38,782 bases of DNA. Origin: a virus. The notes under the pieces are model-generated. The model worked only from the letters and a program-made list of their open reading frames with translations, had not been told where the DNA came from and ran no database searches. Both the position numbers and the translations under genes were made by a program. Within the stretch, counting starts at the first letter, position 1, and the number at the start of each line of letters is the position of its first letter. This document shows, piece after piece, positions 1,098 to 23,408 of this stretch. The DNA lies in the IMG/VR virus record IMGVR_UViG_3300032087_001743, positions 1 through 38,782 of that record; one strand, given 5' to 3'.

Positions 1098-1526
1098 ATG
1101 GATAATTACATAGTCGTACTCCCAGAAGGAGGACTAACATCTAAAGAAAGAGCAGACCAGATCTCTTTTGAACTGTGGGCAATCTCTAGACCTATTGGAG
1201 TACGACCTGCAAATGAAACAACTAAGTATTTGTTTGGGAGAATACATCACCCTGCTACAGATAATACTGACCCTAACTTTGATATGGCAGCTATTCCTGT
1301 AGATTTGGATTACATGGTGTATGTACACCCAGAAAATAACTTGGATGCATTGCTTGCTTTATTTCCTGAAGTTCCAGAAGAAGAAAGAAATCAACTGTCT
1401 ACATTTATTGGGAGCTCAGCAAATAACAAGTTTAGATTTGGGGATATCATCCCATCAACAGCAACTGTTCGCCCAAAATCAGAGCTAGAAGCTGCGGGAT
1501 GGTTTCCTGCAGATGATCTAGTCTGA
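1098..1526 (+). CDS. Conserved-looking hypothetical protein downstream of the receptor-binding gene
   Basis: A 142-residue acidic soluble protein with no signal peptide or membrane segment. It starts MDNYIVVLPEGGLTSKERAD and ends in GWFPADDLV. I do not recognise the family. The ATG is preceded by an A-rich leader (AAAAAAATAAATCACA) typical of this genome, and the stop overlaps the next ATG (TGATG at 1524-1528). Its position right after the fibre module, and a remnant of a second copy of its start at 1012, suggest that it travels with the fibre gene. It could be an assembly chaperone or small fibre partner; that role is inference only. Confidence 0.6.
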   Translation: MDNYIVVLPEGGLTSKERADQISFELWAISRPIGVRPANETTKYLFGRIHHPATDNTDPNFDMAAIPVDLDYMVYVHPENNLDALLALFPEVPEEERNQLSTFIGSSANNKFRFGDIIPSTATVRPKSELEAAGWFPADDLV

Positions 1527-1912
1527 TGAAACACATATTATTATTCTTAATAGCAGTAGTCCTAGGAGTTGTATTTATACCCTTAGGGCTATTGTTTTCT
1601 ATAGTGTTTAGATTAAGAATAACGATTAACACAGGTTATGACTATTTCAAAGTCTGTGCAATAGCGATAGACCAAGCTGGGAACGTTTTTTGCTCTGACC
1701 TGTTTAATATGTTACTGATAACTAACAAAGCTAAAATAAAGTTCGGGAACCCAGATCAAACAATATCAGCAGTACTTGGGTATGCGCAATACTTTAATGC
1801 ATTAACATCTATAGGAAAAAGAATAGTGGTACTATTAGACACTATAGATCCCTATCACTGCTACAACGCTATGGTAAAAGATACAAAATGGAAAAGGAAA
1901 AAAAGAAAATAA
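1526..1912 (+). CDS. Small membrane-anchored protein of the lysis block
   Basis: A 128-residue protein with one strongly hydrophobic N-terminal segment (about residues 4-28), then a soluble part containing NTGYDYFKVCAIAIDQAGNVF, and a very basic C-terminus (KWKRKKRK). I recall similar proteins next to the holin in other Bacteroidetes phages, but I know of no established function. It starts on a TGATG overlap with the previous gene and overlaps the holin gene by 25 bases, so the two are probably translationally coupled. A role as antiholin, second holin or pore partner is possible. Confidence 0.6.
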   Translation: MKHILLFLIAVVLGVVFIPLGLLFSIVFRLRITINTGYDYFKVCAIAIDQAGNVFCSDLFNMLLITNKAKIKFGNPDQTISAVLGYAQYFNALTSIGKRIVVLLDTIDPYHCYNAMVKDTKWKRKKRK

Positions 1913-2328
1913 GAGATACTAGACTAGGAGAATGGTTAAGAGACAAAGCCCCTAATGTATTAAACACAGTAGGAGACCTGCTCCCAGATCAAGGAGCTCT
2001 TGGATTAGTAAAGAATCTACTAGATAAGGAACCAGGTATAGACCCAGCTGAGGCAAAAGCTAAAGTTGATGCAGAAATTGCATATCAGAACAATGTAACA
2101 GAGCGTTGGAAAGCTGATATGTCTAGCGACATCAAGCTTGCTAAACTTATACGACCTGTGATACTCATCACACTAATAGTTGTATTTGTATCAACTATGG
2201 TATTTGATAGTTTAGATAATCAACCTTTTAACGTCAAAGAAAGCTACGTATCTCTACTTGAGATTCTAATGCTAACGGTATTTGGAGCATACTTTGCAGG
2301 AAGAACAATAGAAAAAACAAAGAAATGA
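1888..2328 (+). CDS. Putative holin (3TM / gene-transfer-agent holin type)
   Basis: A 146-residue protein. The N-terminal half is charged and amphipathic (about 1-80, including RWKADMSSDIKLAKLIRP). Two clear membrane helices follow, about 88-106 (VILITLIVVFVSTMVF) and 121-137, and the tail is basic (EKTKK). This layout fits the family 'holin of 3TMs, for gene-transfer release', in which an amphipathic or membrane segment precedes two helices and the protein permeabilises the inner membrane to trigger lysis. It sits one gene upstream of the secreted protease and three genes upstream of the amidase endolysin, as expected for a lysis cassette. The start overlaps the previous gene in an A-rich stretch, and the stop overlaps the next ATG. 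Confidence 0.75.
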   Translation: MEKEKKKIRDTRLGEWLRDKAPNVLNTVGDLLPDQGALGLVKNLLDKEPGIDPAEAKAKVDAEIAYQNNVTERWKADMSSDIKLAKLIRPVILITLIVVFVSTMVFDSLDNQPFNVKESYVSLLEILMLTVFGAYFAGRTIEKTKK

Positions 2329-3473
2329 GAGTCTTATTTTTTCTCTTATTTCCTCTATTTACTTTAGCACAGAATGACTCTTGTGTTGTATTTGAGAATG
2401 ATATAAATCCAGAGATTCAAATAATGGGGATGTCCATGGACCCCCCATCCTGGAAGAACGTAGACTACGTTGTACACATCCATCACACCGACAGCTTTCC
2501 GTTTGAGTATAGCTACCTAGATGAAGATATCATCTGGGATGCTCACGAGCACCTGAATGAGGAGTTCGAGGAGGCTATGTTTAGCTTCGATTTGATTCAA
2601 GTACAATATCATGACCTTGATGATTTCTGGGGTAGCCCAGCAGTTCTTCAGATGTACAATACCTGTGTTCCATACAGCTACTACGGGTGGGAAGCCATGG
2701 AGGAGTATCTAGAACCTATCGTATGGGACCAGGACAATTACATGAATGTACATATATTCCCTCAGTTCTGCGCTGGAATACTCGGCTTTGCTTGGTTGTC
2801 GAGGGCTCAAACTCCATTCGACGGGGTTTGGGTTAGGACAAATGTCTACGGTAGAATTGGGGACCACCTTTGGGGGGACAGGGATGAGAACAAGACTCTG
2901 ATTCATGAAGTAGGTCACTTCCTTAGCTTGCACCACGTATTTAATGGAGTTGATTTCTGCGGAGAAGACCTAGGTCCGTGCGAGGAAACAGGAGACTGGG
3001 TGTGCGACACGCCTCCTACAAAAGTAAACTGGAGTTGCGAGAACCCTGTGTGCCCCCCAGGAGCCTATAACTATACACCAGATAACCACATGGATTACTA
3101 CGTGGATTCATGTAGACAACACTTCACTGAGGGACAGATTAACCGAATGCATGCTATGATCCCAATCACTCGCCCAGGCTTGGTCGATACCGACGAAGAC
3201 ATATGCGTAGGAGACATAGACGGAGACTACGTGGTTGGCATGAACGATATGCTGTTAATGCTCGCTAACTGGAATGACTTGTATTGGGAGCAAGGGGACG
3301 TGAACGGAGACGGATTGTTTACCGTCATGGATGTCCAGATCATACTGGCCCAGTGGGGTACCATTTGTTTTGGTGCTGAGCTTGATCCATTTTATAGAGA
3401 AGAGTATATTTACAGCTCTAAGTCTGAAAACATTCAACAGCTTCTAAACAAGCTACAAAACCATAACAAATGA
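2325..3473 (+). CDS. Secreted M43 (pappalysin/cytophagalysin-like) zinc metalloprotease with dockerin-like C-terminus
   Basis: A 382-residue protein. It has a short signal peptide (residues 1-16, ending TLAQ, a typical Bacteroidetes cleavage context). The zinc site is HEVGHFLSLHH, with ligands H194, H198 and H204 and catalytic E195. The usual metzincin Gly at position 8 of the motif is Ser201. A Met-turn NHMDYYVDSC (M256) is followed by FTEGQINRM, which is the M43 signature. Residues about 294-343 hold two Asp-rich calcium-loop repeats (GDIDGDYVVG, GDVNGDGLF) each followed by a hydrophobic helix, as in type I dockerins. There is no obvious T9SS sorting domain. The gene looks richer in GC than its neighbours and lies between holin and endolysin, suggesting acquisition from a flavobacterial host. 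It may degrade cell-surface proteins at lysis or be virion-borne; the role is inferred. Confidence 0.85.
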   Translation: MRVLFFLLFPLFTLAQNDSCVVFENDINPEIQIMGMSMDPPSWKNVDYVVHIHHTDSFPFEYSYLDEDIIWDAHEHLNEEFEEAMFSFDLIQVQYHDLDDFWGSPAVLQMYNTCVPYSYYGWEAMEEYLEPIVWDQDNYMNVHIFPQFCAGILGFAWLSRAQTPFDGVWVRTNVYGRIGDHLWGDRDENKTLIHEVGHFLSLHHVFNGVDFCGEDLGPCEETGDWVCDTPPTKVNWSCENPVCPPGAYNYTPDNHMDYYVDSCRQHFTEGQINRMHAMIPITRPGLVDTDEDICVGDIDGDYVVGMNDMLLMLANWNDLYWEQGDVNGDGLFTVMDVQIILAQWGTICFGAELDPFYREEYIYSSKSENIQQLLNKLQNHNK

Positions 3474-3601
3474 GAAAGCTACAGTCTGTTAAAATCGAAA
3501 CACACAAAGTAAGCCGACCAGGGGTACACTCTAAGACTAAAACAAGCAAACACAAAAAGTCCAAGAACTACAAGAAGTCCTATAAAGGACAAGGAAGATG
3601 A
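3470..3601 (+). CDS. Small Lys-rich basic protein (43 aa)
   Basis: The frame starts on an ATGA overlap with the protease gene and stops on an overlap with the amidase start, giving MRKLQSVKIETHKVSRPGVH and then a run of Ser/Lys (SKTKTSKHKKSKNYKK) ending SYKGQGR. The overlap at both ends and its composition argue that it is real. Similar tiny Lys/Ser-rich proteins occur in other Bacteroidetes phages, as far as I recall. It could bind nucleic acid or be a minor internal virion component; there is no direct evidence for either. Confidence 0.65.
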   Translation: MRKLQSVKIETHKVSRPGVHSKTKTSKHKKSKNYKKSYKGQGR

Positions 3602-4011
3602 GAGACATAAAGAGAATAATAATACACTGCTCTGCAACCCCTCCAAGTATGGATATTGGGGCTGACACAATTAGGGGGTGGCATATGTCCAAAGGCTGGA
3701 AAGATATTGGCTATCATTATGTAATAAGACTTAATGGGGAAATAGAATCTGGAAGAACTATTGATCAGATAGGAGCTCATGTTAAGGGGCACAATAAAGA
3801 CTCAATAGGGATATGCTACATAGGAGGAGTTGATGAAGATCACAATCCAAAGGATACTATGTATGAGTGCCAAGAGGAGACAATGCGTGAATTGATATTC
3901 TCTTTAAGAGTAGTAGCAGATGAAGATCTAACTATTCATGGACATAATGAGTTCTCAGACAAAGCATGCCCTAGCTTTAAAGTAAGCGAAAAGTTTAAGG
4001 ATATACTATAA
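3598..4011 (+). CDS. N-acetylmuramoyl-L-alanine amidase endolysin (T7 lysozyme type, Amidase_2)
   Basis: A 137-residue protein matching T7 lysozyme in spacing of the key residues. Zinc ligands are H10 (RIIIHCSAT), H116 (HGHNEFSD) and C124 (KACPSF). The catalytic Tyr is Y39 (GYHYVI), exactly 29 residues after the first ligand as in T7. Catalytic Lys is K122, two before the Cys. It cleaves the amide bond between N-acetylmuramic acid and L-alanine in peptidoglycan. There is no signal peptide, so access to the wall depends on the holin upstream. The T7 enzyme also inhibits its RNA polymerase; nothing here shows whether that applies. Start chosen at the ATG overlapping the upstream stop. Confidence 0.93.
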   Translation: MRDIKRIIIHCSATPPSMDIGADTIRGWHMSKGWKDIGYHYVIRLNGEIESGRTIDQIGAHVKGHNKDSIGICYIGGVDEDHNPKDTMYECQEETMRELIFSLRVVADEDLTIHGHNEFSDKACPSFKVSEKFKDIL

Positions 4012-4026: not shown

Positions 4027-4052
4027 CTCAAAACCAATAATAATGAGCAAAT
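4022..4052 (+). promoter_or_regulatory. Inverted repeat enclosing the groES start codon
   Basis: ATTTGCTC (4022-4029) and GAGCAAAT (4045-4052) are perfect 8-base complements separated by 15 bases. The start codon is at 4043-4045, so in a transcript reading through from upstream the G of AUG and the next codons would be base-paired. This could be a translational switch or a temperature-sensitive structure, or chance. Confidence 0.4.
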
Positions 4053-4321
4053 TAAATTTTAACCCAACTAGGGACTGGATTGTGCTCCCATTTCAACAAC
4101 TGGAGAAAACAGACTCCGGAATTATGTTGGCAGGAGGAGCTGAAAAGTCTATGAAGTCTAACATACTAGAAGTAGTAGCTGTAGGACCAGACTGCAAGAC
4201 TATTAAAGAGGGGGATACTGTTATGGTGCACCCTACAAGCGAAGGACTTATCATCGACCTAGATGAAGGTAAGTTTGTAATGGTTAATGAATTTATGATT
4301 TGTGGAGTAATCCCAGCATGA
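4043..4321 (+). CDS. GroES-like co-chaperonin (Cpn10)
   Basis: A 92-residue protein with the Cpn10 layout. It has an N-terminal strand (NPTRDWIVLP), a mobile loop TDSGIMLAGGAEKS in which I27-M28-L29 corresponds to the GroEL-binding hydrophobic tripeptide (IVL in GroES), then EVVAVGPDCK, a GDTVMVHP segment and a C-terminal strand (VNEFMICGVI). Length matches the usual 90-100 residues. No GroEL gene is in the window, so it probably caps host GroEL to fold phage proteins, as T4 gp31 does for the T4 capsid protein. Conservation of the mobile loop supports activity. Its leader contains a possible promoter and an inverted repeat; the stop overlaps the next ATG. Confidence 0.87.
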   Translation: MSKLNFNPTRDWIVLPFQQLEKTDSGIMLAGGAEKSMKSNILEVVAVGPDCKTIKEGDTVMVHPTSEGLIIDLDEGKFVMVNEFMICGVIPA

Positions 4322-5328: not shown

Positions 5329-5803
5329 TGGGAATAAGATACTCCCATCTCCGTACGCACTTACTATTCCAGAGTTCAAGGCATTGAAAACAGAGGAGCT
5401 TGCTGCAGTATATTTCTTTGTAGATCACCGTTCCCCATACAGTGTGTACGATGAAGAGACTAAATGGGAACAAATTAAGGAAACTCTTAAGGTAAGCGCC
5501 TCCCCAAAGATAAAAGCAGCTATACAAGTATATGCAGAGCTTTCTGAGACATCTGCAGTAAAGCTTTTAAAAGCAGCTAGGGCATCTGTAACAAAACTTG
5601 AGAAGTATTTCAATGATGTAGATCTCACCATGATGGATGATAATGGGAAACCTATATTCCATGCAAAGGACTTAATATCTAATCTATCTAATATGGCTAA
5701 GGTTGTTGGAGGATTAGATGAACTAGAAGAGCTAGTTAAAAAGCAGCAGCAGAAAGACAACCCTAATAGAGGTGGGGTAGTCACTAATAAGTACTCTCAG
5801 TAA
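5306..5803 (+). CDS. Putative small terminase subunit or packaging accessory protein
   Basis: A 165-residue mostly helical protein starting MKDLITASGNKILPSPYALT, with ALKTEELAAVYFFVDHRSPY near residues 26-45 and a charged C-terminus (ELEELVKKQQQKDN). It ends on the ATG of terminase large subunit (TAATG), the position where small terminase subunits usually lie. I see no clear helix-turn-helix, so the call rests mainly on position and on memory of similar genes before terL in crAss-like and marine Bacteroidetes phages. It might instead be a structural or regulatory protein. Confidence 0.5.
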   Translation: MKDLITASGNKILPSPYALTIPEFKALKTEELAAVYFFVDHRSPYSVYDEETKWEQIKETLKVSASPKIKAAIQVYAELSETSAVKLLKAARASVTKLEKYFNDVDLTMMDDNGKPIFHAKDLISNLSNMAKVVGGLDELEELVKKQQQKDNPNRGGVVTNKYSQ

Positions 5804-7767
5804 TGTTTAAAGAGTCTCACTTATTTTCCCCAGCAGCTAATGCATTCCTATCCAACGGATTCTATACAGATATCTTAGTTGGGACTAAAGAGTATTATGA
5901 CTTCTGGGATCAAGAAAGAGAGAGATGCATCTTAGGGTATGAAGTAAACAATGTAAGAATTACAGGATACCACTACTTCTATCTAAACTACTGCCCCATA
6001 GATAGAGTAATAGATGAAGAGCTCCCAGATGGGACAGTACTATCTAGAAGAGATAGAACCTTCCCAGCATTCTATGACGGGGACTATGAGTATTTTAACG
6101 CTATAGATAGGGCTCGAAAAGAGAACAAACATATAGTAGTACTAAAAGCTAGACGTAAAGGCTTTTCATATAAAGCGGGAAGTATGCTAGCTCGTAACTA
6201 TTTTCTCATGCGCAACAGCAAGAACTATGTATTTGCTTCTCAAAAAGAATACCTCATCGGGGATGGGCTGTTATCAAAGGCTTGGGACTTCTTATCTTTT
6301 ATAGATGATAATACAGCATGGACTCAGCCTAGACTTAGAGATAGAGAGATGCACAAACAGTCTGGATACAAGAAGAATGTTAACGGGGCAGATGTAGAGC
6401 TAGGGATGAAATCTCAAATTATTGGGGTAAGCCTTAAAGACAACCCTGATAAAGTAAGAGGTAAAGCTGGGGATCTCATATTCTTTGAAGAAGCAGGTTC
6501 ATTCTCAGGGCTATTGAAAGCCTGGGAAGTAGCAATGCCAACTATGAGACAAGGTTCTAAAACACTTGGGACTATGGTGGCATTTGGAACAGGAGGGGAA
6601 GAAGGAAGTGGATTTGAGGGAATGGAAGAACTGTTCTATCACCCAGAGTCCTATGACTGCTTAGCATTTGACAACAACTGGGATGCAGGAGCTATGGGGA
6701 CAACCTGTGGTTACTTTGTCCCAATCTTTCAAAACCTGGATGGATTTATAGATGAAAATGGGAACTCTCAAGTAGAGAAAGCCAAGAAGCACGAAGAAGA
6801 ACAGAGAGAAAAGAAGAAAGGAGCTAATGACCCAAAGGCACTAGATCAATATATAGCTGAGCACCCATTCTCCCCACAAGAAGCAACACTACAGGTAACA
6901 GCTAATCTATTTGATGTCAACTCACTGAAAGAACAATACAATAGAGTAAAAGCTAATGGGTTAGAATCTGAAGGAACAGCAGGTGTTATGTACTATGATA
7001 ACAAAGGGAATCCTGCATTTAGACCTTCCTTAGATGTCACTCCTGTATATAAATTCCCACATAGAAAGGGAGACAAAACAGATGGGGGTGTAGTCATATA
7101 TGAAACCCCACATAAAACAAAAGAAGGGTTAGTACCACACAATCTATATGTAGTGTGTCATGACCCTTATGCACAATCTAAATCAACTTCAAACGAATCA
7201 TTAGGAGCTGCTTATGTAATTAAAAGAGCTAACAACATAAGCAAACCTGATGATATAATAGTAGCTAGTTATGTCGGTAGACCACAAACGCAGGATGAGT
7301 ACAACAAAAATCTATTTATGCTTGCTGAATACTACAACGCGAAAATTGGGTTCGAAAACGACCGTGGTGAGCTTATTGCTTACGCCAAGAGATATCGCAA
7401 GCTACATAAACTACAGGAAGAGTTTGAGATGCTAGATAAGAAAGAGCTACGCTCTAGGAATGTAAAAAGACAGTTTGGGATGCATATGACTGAACAGCGT
7501 AAGAGACAAGGAGAGCTCTATATACGAGATTGGTTAAACTCCCCAAGAGCAACTGATGAAGAAGGGAATACAAAACTAAACCTTCATTACATCTACGATC
7601 CAGCATTACTTCAAGAATTAATTAAGTTTAATCATAAAGGTAACTTCGATAGAGTGATGGCTTTTATGGTTGGGATGTACCACACACGAGAGCTATATAA
7701 TAAAGAGGTGGTAGAAATATTAGAGGATAGATCTAGTGATGACTGGTTTGATAAAAATTACCAATAA
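5803..7767 (+). CDS. terL: Terminase large subunit
   Basis: A 654-residue packaging motor protein. The N-terminal ATPase has a Walker-A-like segment KARRKGFSYKAG (about 115-126, with the conserved Arg-Lys-Gly seen in crAss-like terminases) and a Walker B LIFFEEAG with E229/E230 at about 225-232. The C-terminal RNase H-like nuclease begins with VCHDPYAQS (D454) and continues to GFENDRGELI near 515-523, giving the acidic metal ligands. It cleaves concatemeric DNA and drives it through the portal, which is encoded next. Length and motif spacing match phages of Bacteroidetes. The start overlaps the previous stop. Confidence 0.93.
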   Translation: MFKESHLFSPAANAFLSNGFYTDILVGTKEYYDFWDQERERCILGYEVNNVRITGYHYFYLNYCPIDRVIDEELPDGTVLSRRDRTFPAFYDGDYEYFNAIDRARKENKHIVVLKARRKGFSYKAGSMLARNYFLMRNSKNYVFASQKEYLIGDGLLSKAWDFLSFIDDNTAWTQPRLRDREMHKQSGYKKNVNGADVELGMKSQIIGVSLKDNPDKVRGKAGDLIFFEEAGSFSGLLKAWEVAMPTMRQGSKTLGTMVAFGTGGEEGSGFEGMEELFYHPESYDCLAFDNNWDAGAMGTTCGYFVPIFQNLDGFIDENGNSQVEKAKKHEEEQREKKKGANDPKALDQYIAEHPFSPQEATLQVTANLFDVNSLKEQYNRVKANGLESEGTAGVMYYDNKGNPAFRPSLDVTPVYKFPHRKGDKTDGGVVIYETPHKTKEGLVPHNLYVVCHDPYAQSKSTSNESLGAAYVIKRANNISKPDDIIVASYVGRPQTQDEYNKNLFMLAEYYNAKIGFENDRGELIAYAKRYRKLHKLQEEFEMLDKKELRSRNVKRQFGMHMTEQRKRQGELYIRDWLNSPRATDEEGNTKLNLHYIYDPALLQELIKFNHKGNFDRVMAFMVGMYHTRELYNKEVVEILEDRSSDDWFDKNYQ

Positions 7768-23192: not shown

Positions 23193-23408
23193 ATGAACTT
23201 TGACGACATCACTATATATCAATTTCTAATTCTTGCTGGAGGACTGATTGGAACCTGGATTAAACACCAAAATGACCATGCAGTCCTGAAGAGCAGAGTA
23301 AAGTCTCTTGAGCTCAAGAATGATGAAATAACTGCAATGTTGAAGAAACTGGCTGAAGACGTTGCTGAAATTAAACTTCTACTAGCCAGAAAACAAATTG
23401 ACAATTAA
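23193..23408 (+). CDS. Small membrane protein with coiled coil
   Basis: A 71-residue protein with one membrane segment at about residues 8-22 (IYQFLILAGGLIGTW) followed by a heptad-pattern helix (LKSRVKSLELKNDEITAMLK). The topology matches small phage proteins such as XhlA-like haemolysin/holin-associated proteins and inner-membrane spanin-like subunits. It is far from the lysis block, so an entry or virion-related role is also possible. No lipobox-bearing partner is seen nearby. It lies 5 bases after the previous stop. Confidence 0.55.
   Translation: MNFDDITIYQFLILAGGLIGTWIKHQNDHAVLKSRVKSLELKNDEITAMLKKLAEDVAEIKLLLARKQIDN

Follow-up and report, generated by a model that had tools for sequence, protein, structure and literature searches.

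The gene at positions 2325-3473 of the window (the whole stretch of DNA analysed, a 38.8-kb IMG/VR record that is a fragment of a crAss-like phage) is, on the evidence of its sequence, a real gene for a Sec-exported metalloprotease of the M43 (pappalysin) family. Its zinc site and Met-turn are intact and proteolytic activity is predicted. The gene directly follows a holin gene, and the pair is best explained as an exchangeable two-gene module among marine Bacteroidota phages. We put at about even the chance that the product is an accessory protease, linked to the holin and secreted late, whose targets at lysis are proteins of the envelope, surface or matrix. The features of the window are as follows.

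1526-1912, plus strand: small protein of unknown function (phrog_3342) with a hydrophobic stretch at its N-terminus; its gene opens the series of overlapping small genes in the cassette.
1888-2328, plus strand: holin (phrog_3427, E=8e-19), of the family that accompanies the protease.
2325-3473, plus strand: M43 metalloprotease of 382 aa, its start overlapping the holin stop (Peptidase_M43 profile, homology, model).
2325-2369, plus strand: signal peptide MRVLFFLLFPLFTLA/Q, from sequence, with predicted cleavage before Gln16 (Bacteroidetes Q-rule).
2382-2384, plus strand: Cys20, context Q-N-D-S-C, invariant in 48 of 48 homologues, candidate cysteine-switch residue.
2904-2936, plus strand: zinc-binding motif HEVGHFLSLHH, with ligands H194, H198 and H204 and catalytic E195.
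About 3084-3101, plus strand: Met-turn NHMDYY, from sequence and homologue alignment.
3204-3371, plus strand: two Asp-rich loops that form a dockerin-like pair, with Cys294 and Cys348 closing it.
3372-3470, plus strand: C-terminal tail with a GAELDPFYREE motif, in one subclade only, without T9SS sorting domain.
3470-3601, plus strand: basic ORF of 43 aa, MRKLQSVKIE...SRPGVHSKTKTSKHKKSKNYKKSYKGQGR, read from the sequence, overlapping the M43 and amidase genes.
3598-4011, plus strand: N-acetylmuramoyl-L-alanine amidase (endolysin; PF01510, E=7e-14; phrog_822, E=8e-55).
4043-4321, plus strand: GroES-like co-chaperonin (PF00166, E=6e-8), the conserved next gene.
5803-7767, plus strand: terminase large subunit (TerL), crAss-like (phrog_6681, E=7e-130).
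23193-23408, plus strand: 71-aa protein with a transmembrane (TM) segment and a coiled coil, weak Rz-like score, whose homologue lies directly upstream of M43 in other phages.

The first-pass annotation had described a signal peptide, the HEVGHFLSLHH site, an M43-type Met-turn and two Asp-rich loops, and all are present. Its identification of a secreted M43 protease is borne out by the signal peptide, zinc site, Met-turn and Pfam match (PF05572, E=7e-20, 71.9 bits against a cut-off of 23). The protein also matches the solved M43 enzymes ulilysin, mirolysin and the pappalysins, and has a zinc site of the HExxHxxGxxH/D type with the catalytic Glu. The residues H194, E195, H198, H204, Met256 and Cys20 are invariant in all 48 phage homologues. 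The Ser in place of the usual metzincin Gly had been called unusual, yet Ser stands there in 18 of the 48 phage homologues and Gly in 30, and cellular M43 proteins have Gly, Asn (often), Asp or Trp. An AlphaFold/ColabFold model built from the 48 homologues has a mean pLDDT of 75.8; the catalytic core is mostly above 85, and loops 207-214 and 229-248 are of low confidence. The model has the Met-turn and metzincin fold and superimposes on ulilysin with Z 21 (2.9 A over 216 residues). Purifying selection is indicated by dN/dS values of 0.05-0.11 in 12 close homologue pairs, and the M43 gene is therefore functional.

With Gln as its first predicted mature residue the protein conforms to the Bacteroidetes Q-rule (PMC5837995), and the pattern [AGSNCT]Q..C, a Gln after the signal peptide with a Cys shortly after, is found in 47/48 homologues. 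The Q-rule signal and the phage relatives make Bacteroidota the likely host. In promirolysin the Cys23 of a Q-R-T-C sequence coordinates zinc and confers latency (PMC8259862). The invariant N-terminal Cys20 probably fits a cysteine-switch zymogen of the same kind, which would make the enzyme latent. One cysteine would be unpaired if the others form disulphides, because the protein has 11, an odd number. Residues 16-32 of the model have pLDDT below 50, and zymogen geometry is unreadable there. The signal peptide is without a lipobox and no TM segment lies downstream of it, so the protease itself is not built as a spanin.

The Asp-rich loops score 17.3 bits with Dockerin_1 (PF00404) against a cut-off of 22.9, and hence are called dockerin-like only. 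The module is retained in short phage M43 homologues. Cohesin (PF00963) had no match in the window, in six related phage contigs or in the Bacteroidota genome G048, which may not be the host. The same Cys-closed module terminates more than 20 different proteins of G048, within a few residues of the stop (e.g. L313, L310, L315-L331). G048 is T9SS-positive and encodes 150 or more T9SS type A tails. The module may be a host-type C-terminal module for extracytoplasmic proteins, and in G048 it may serve in sorting or anchoring. The window protease itself has no match to a T9SS sorting domain (PF18962 or PF13585), and PF13585 is absent from the window.

The assignment to the crAss-like phages (Crassvirales) rests on TerL, which aligns over 96% of its length with crAss-like phages (cr6_1 and others, the best annotated matches) at about 42% identity; the contig is fragmentary and its PHROG matches are TerL, portal and major head. 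The protease had been placed in a lysis operon between holin and amidase with overlapping start and stop codons. Its place in the lysis operon is supported. The overlaps are real and take the form of four-base ATGA sequences at 2325 (holin/M43), 3470 (M43/43-aa ORF) and 3598 (43-aa ORF/amidase), but the 43-aa ORF that separates M43 from the amidase had been missed. Homologues of this ORF (c15/k28) occur in other loci, and a homologue of the first small protein (k44) is found in four further non-redundant M43 loci.

The association of protease and holin extends to other phages. A member of this holin family is found no more than five genes from M43 in 32/55 non-redundant loci, nearly always upstream. 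Among the 41 loci with enough upstream sequence for counts of gene neighbours, 28 carry M43 no more than four genes away from a same-strand gene for a holin, an amidase or a DUF5675 protein; the M43 start is no more than 30 nt from the upstream gene in 29, and the overlap is exactly 4 nt in 18. Near relatives of the window (TerL at least 78%, n=41 with the window included) have both this holin and short M43 in 4 cases and neither in 37, one of which has a long M43 on the opposite strand. When loci are centred on the holin, an M43-type gene follows it in 23/69, and in 46/69, from podovirus-like and other contigs, the holin is without M43; the protease is therefore dispensable for lysis there. 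Other occupants of the holin locus are small TM proteins, a 376-aa apparent phosphoesterase and exported proteins, among them one whose T9SS type B signal exceeds the cut-off. M43 is away from a recognised holin in L018-L025 and L071-L077, and in L071, L072, L073, L075 and L077 it is found immediately before a phage GroEL, with GroES nearby.

Several neighbours of the protease were noted in these loci. In many related phages a homologue of the 23193-23408 protein, which has an i-spanin-like topology, separates the holin from M43. In L008 (6375-6845), L066, L044 and L048 the gene between M43 and GroES encodes not an amidase but a DUF5675 (PF18925) protein, a candidate alternative endolysin. An exported protein of about 105 aa lies directly upstream of M43 in L004 (2051-2371) and L008 (4920-5234); it is thioredoxin-like by eye and has no family match above cut-off.

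Relatives of the protease are encoded in 212 viral contigs, 80 of which were kept. A scan of 84,980 cellular genomes with sequence patterns gave three weak relatives only (27-32% identity). The patterns were phage-derived and favour phage sequences, and cellular genomes were therefore searched by profile too. M43 proteins proved common in Bacteroidota (72/296 genomes), and the best cellular matches belong to the family of genome G048 (E 2e-51). These cellular relatives are much more distant than the phage homologues. A tree built from 51 phage and 37 cellular catalytic domains separates the phage sequences from the cellular ones at a single branch (support 100/100, stem 1.49). With the closest cellular sequences added, the short phage M43s stay together as a clade (100/97), to which two long phage forms are sister, and three other long phage M43s cluster with cellular sequences, weakly supported (88/56). 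The long phage M43s (630-710 aa; L216, L218, L222, L196, L227) bear dockerin-like or EF-hand-like loops. Because the group of L216, L218 and L222 clusters with cellular sequences, it is likely from the tree that phages acquired M43 at least twice, and the acquisition leading to the window is likely old. A recent host origin of the short M43s was rejected in view of the phage-only clade.

The foreign-looking composition that the first-pass annotation reported is real. The M43 gene has a GC content of 45.3% and a GC3 of 0.512 against a gene mean of 0.346, the second highest of 31 genes compared. High M43 GC3 recurs in several low-GC, mostly crAss-like contigs (the window, L026, L008, L042) and is mostly absent from podovirus-like contigs, where the gene looks native. 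Because the anomaly is distributed in this way, phage-to-phage transfer best explains the composition. The contigs cannot be treated as unrelated phages, since nearly all share the phrog_6681 terminase family, though they fall into two deep lineages, one crAss-like as in the window and one podovirus-like (TerL 22% identity over 330 aa). The podovirus-like terminase is nearest, among records with a named host, to the Flavobacterium elemo and Cellulophaga phages. The window and L026 share 91% in TerL and 57% in M43. The sole DNA similarity in 17 kb between L026 (crAss-like) and L028 (podovirus-like by TerL score) is a block of 1,495 bp at 87% that covers the holin and most of M43, and the two M43 proteins are 90% identical. 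Comparison of this one pair shows directly at the sequence level that the holin-M43 block has passed between phages. A recent transfer from host to phage is not supported: the 100/100 phage-only branch, the GC3 pattern and the L026/L028 block point to exchange among phages.

We infer the latency, timing, substrate and compartment of the protease as follows. M43 would be made late, together with the holin, and exported by Sec. It would be held as a zymogen by the Cys next to the mature N-terminus, which would block the zinc site until the short N-terminal segment is removed. Once holin and endolysin open the cell, it may cut proteins of the host envelope, the cell surface or the surrounding matrix, and this cleavage may assist the bursting of cells or the escape of virions from the debris. 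A role at the envelope or surface during lysis, as first suggested, stays plausible.

Proteins with T9SS signals and the apparent phosphoesterase also occur near the same slot, so the slot may simply hold cargo. The protease could then be a moron-like secreted protein: host-surface effectors would land in the slot beside the lysis genes, and the lysis position would be no more than a convenient late operon. It would act outside the cell during infection, for example in receptor removal (superinfection exclusion) or the degradation of extracellular proteins. We regard this as possible, if on balance improbable. In relatives, an exported protein whose T9SS type B signal matches PF13585 (E=6e-16) is encoded in or near the slot. 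PF13585 is present in 10/11 holin-locus records and 0/30 window or M43 records, a contrast drawn from a biased sample because the eleven were chosen after such T9SS-like tails had been seen. The slot or its vicinity also holds long proteins whose T9SS type A tails are weak, as well as long M43s that bear dockerin-like loops, the dockerin-like module ends many exported-type proteins in a T9SS-positive Bacteroidota genome, and in lambda the bor gene directly follows Rz/Rz1. Against mere cargo, holin and M43 are translationally coupled and were transferred as a single DNA block. The short M43s are without a recognised T9SS tail, and surface delivery is therefore not evident.

Some of these exported proteins may be described further. 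T9SS type B proteins near the same holin family are encoded in L156 (9199-10422, minus strand) and in records G335-G344. L149 (7804-10014) and L156 (5423-7498) encode exported proteins of 690-736 aa with a weak T9SS type A tail and repeats of the GCTD..YNYD type, similar to those in the long M43s of the G048 family.

The first-pass annotation had also suggested that the protease replaces spanins, destroying outer-membrane or periplasmic tethering proteins as a dedicated last lysis step. A lipobox scan, which recovered lambda Rz1 and a T7 lipoprotein within the 18.7 (o-spanin) gene, found no credible lipoprotein o- or u-spanin in the window or in four of six other contigs. The remaining two each had one small candidate, for which no link to lysis was made. 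M43 also directly follows a small TM and coiled-coil protein in 10/55 loci, the place of an o-spanin. The absence of spanins does not track with M43, however: a nearby lipoprotein candidate with an ATG start was found in 1/50 cassettes with the same holin and no M43, and in 0/19 with M43. Since cassettes without M43 lack nearby lipoproteins as well, the absence is general in this group and is not explained by the protease. The TM protein scores weakly as Rz-like, and the profile used (phrog_739) also matched 11/14 control genomes, which makes it uninformative. These counts weaken spanin replacement as the main reading and leave it unlikely; the protease is best explained as an accessory factor and not as a general spanin substitute.

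Very improbable is a virion-associated or morphogenetic protease that processes fibres or helps entry: M43 does lie between tail and packaging genes, and cleavage of extracellular matrix was proposed for a zinc metallopeptidase, a lipoprotein, of Maribacter phage Molly (PMC8776804), but the fibre processing once suggested is unsupported, as the protease is without a tail or fibre domain, the Sec signal peptide and Q-rule cleavage direct it out of the cytoplasm, where virions assemble, and the matrixin-type protease of the related phage Colly_1 is far from the amidase.

An exported protease linked to a holin has partial counterparts in known systems. The window protease shares the catalytic fold (Z 17-21), zinc motif and Met-turn with ulilysin, mirolysin and pappalysin, and an N-terminal Cys near the cleavage site with promirolysin (PMC8259862). 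It differs from these enzymes in being phage-encoded, in its identity of about 24%, its shorter N-terminal segment and dockerin-like C-terminus, and in its location in a lysis cassette. The matrixin-type zinc metallopeptidase of the Maribacter phages Molly and Colly likewise comes from marine flavobacterial phages and is a small, exported protease of metzincin type (PMC8776804), but it is 199 aa long, is described as a lipoprotein with a peptidase domain, has a weak structural match only and is encoded outside the lysis region. The lambda-type cassette with spanins and bor is also a holin-endolysin operon with an extra envelope-directed gene; in the window the extra gene is a protease and no lipoprotein spanin was found nearby. 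Cryophages provide a case of Bacteroidota phages with exported host-type proteins as variable genes, T9SS type A cargo in their case (PMC7468147), although those proteins bear T9SS sorting domains and the window protease has none. No paper that describes an M43 protease as part of a phage lysis cassette was found in the literature searched.

To our knowledge, the lysis of Bacteroidota by phages is poorly understood. The present results suggest that the opening or clearing of the envelope may involve a protease besides the usual wall-cutting enzyme. In its boldest form, which we consider doubtful, the proposal is of a mobile holin-protease lysis module, in which a latency-controlled protease would be a lysis component of many marine Bacteroidota phages and act on the envelope beyond the holin-endolysin-spanin models. 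A secreted protease that travels with a holin across deeply divergent phages is a testable candidate for breaching or clearing the Bacteroidota envelope, surface or matrix, and may offer a handle on the release of protein from lysed marine cells.
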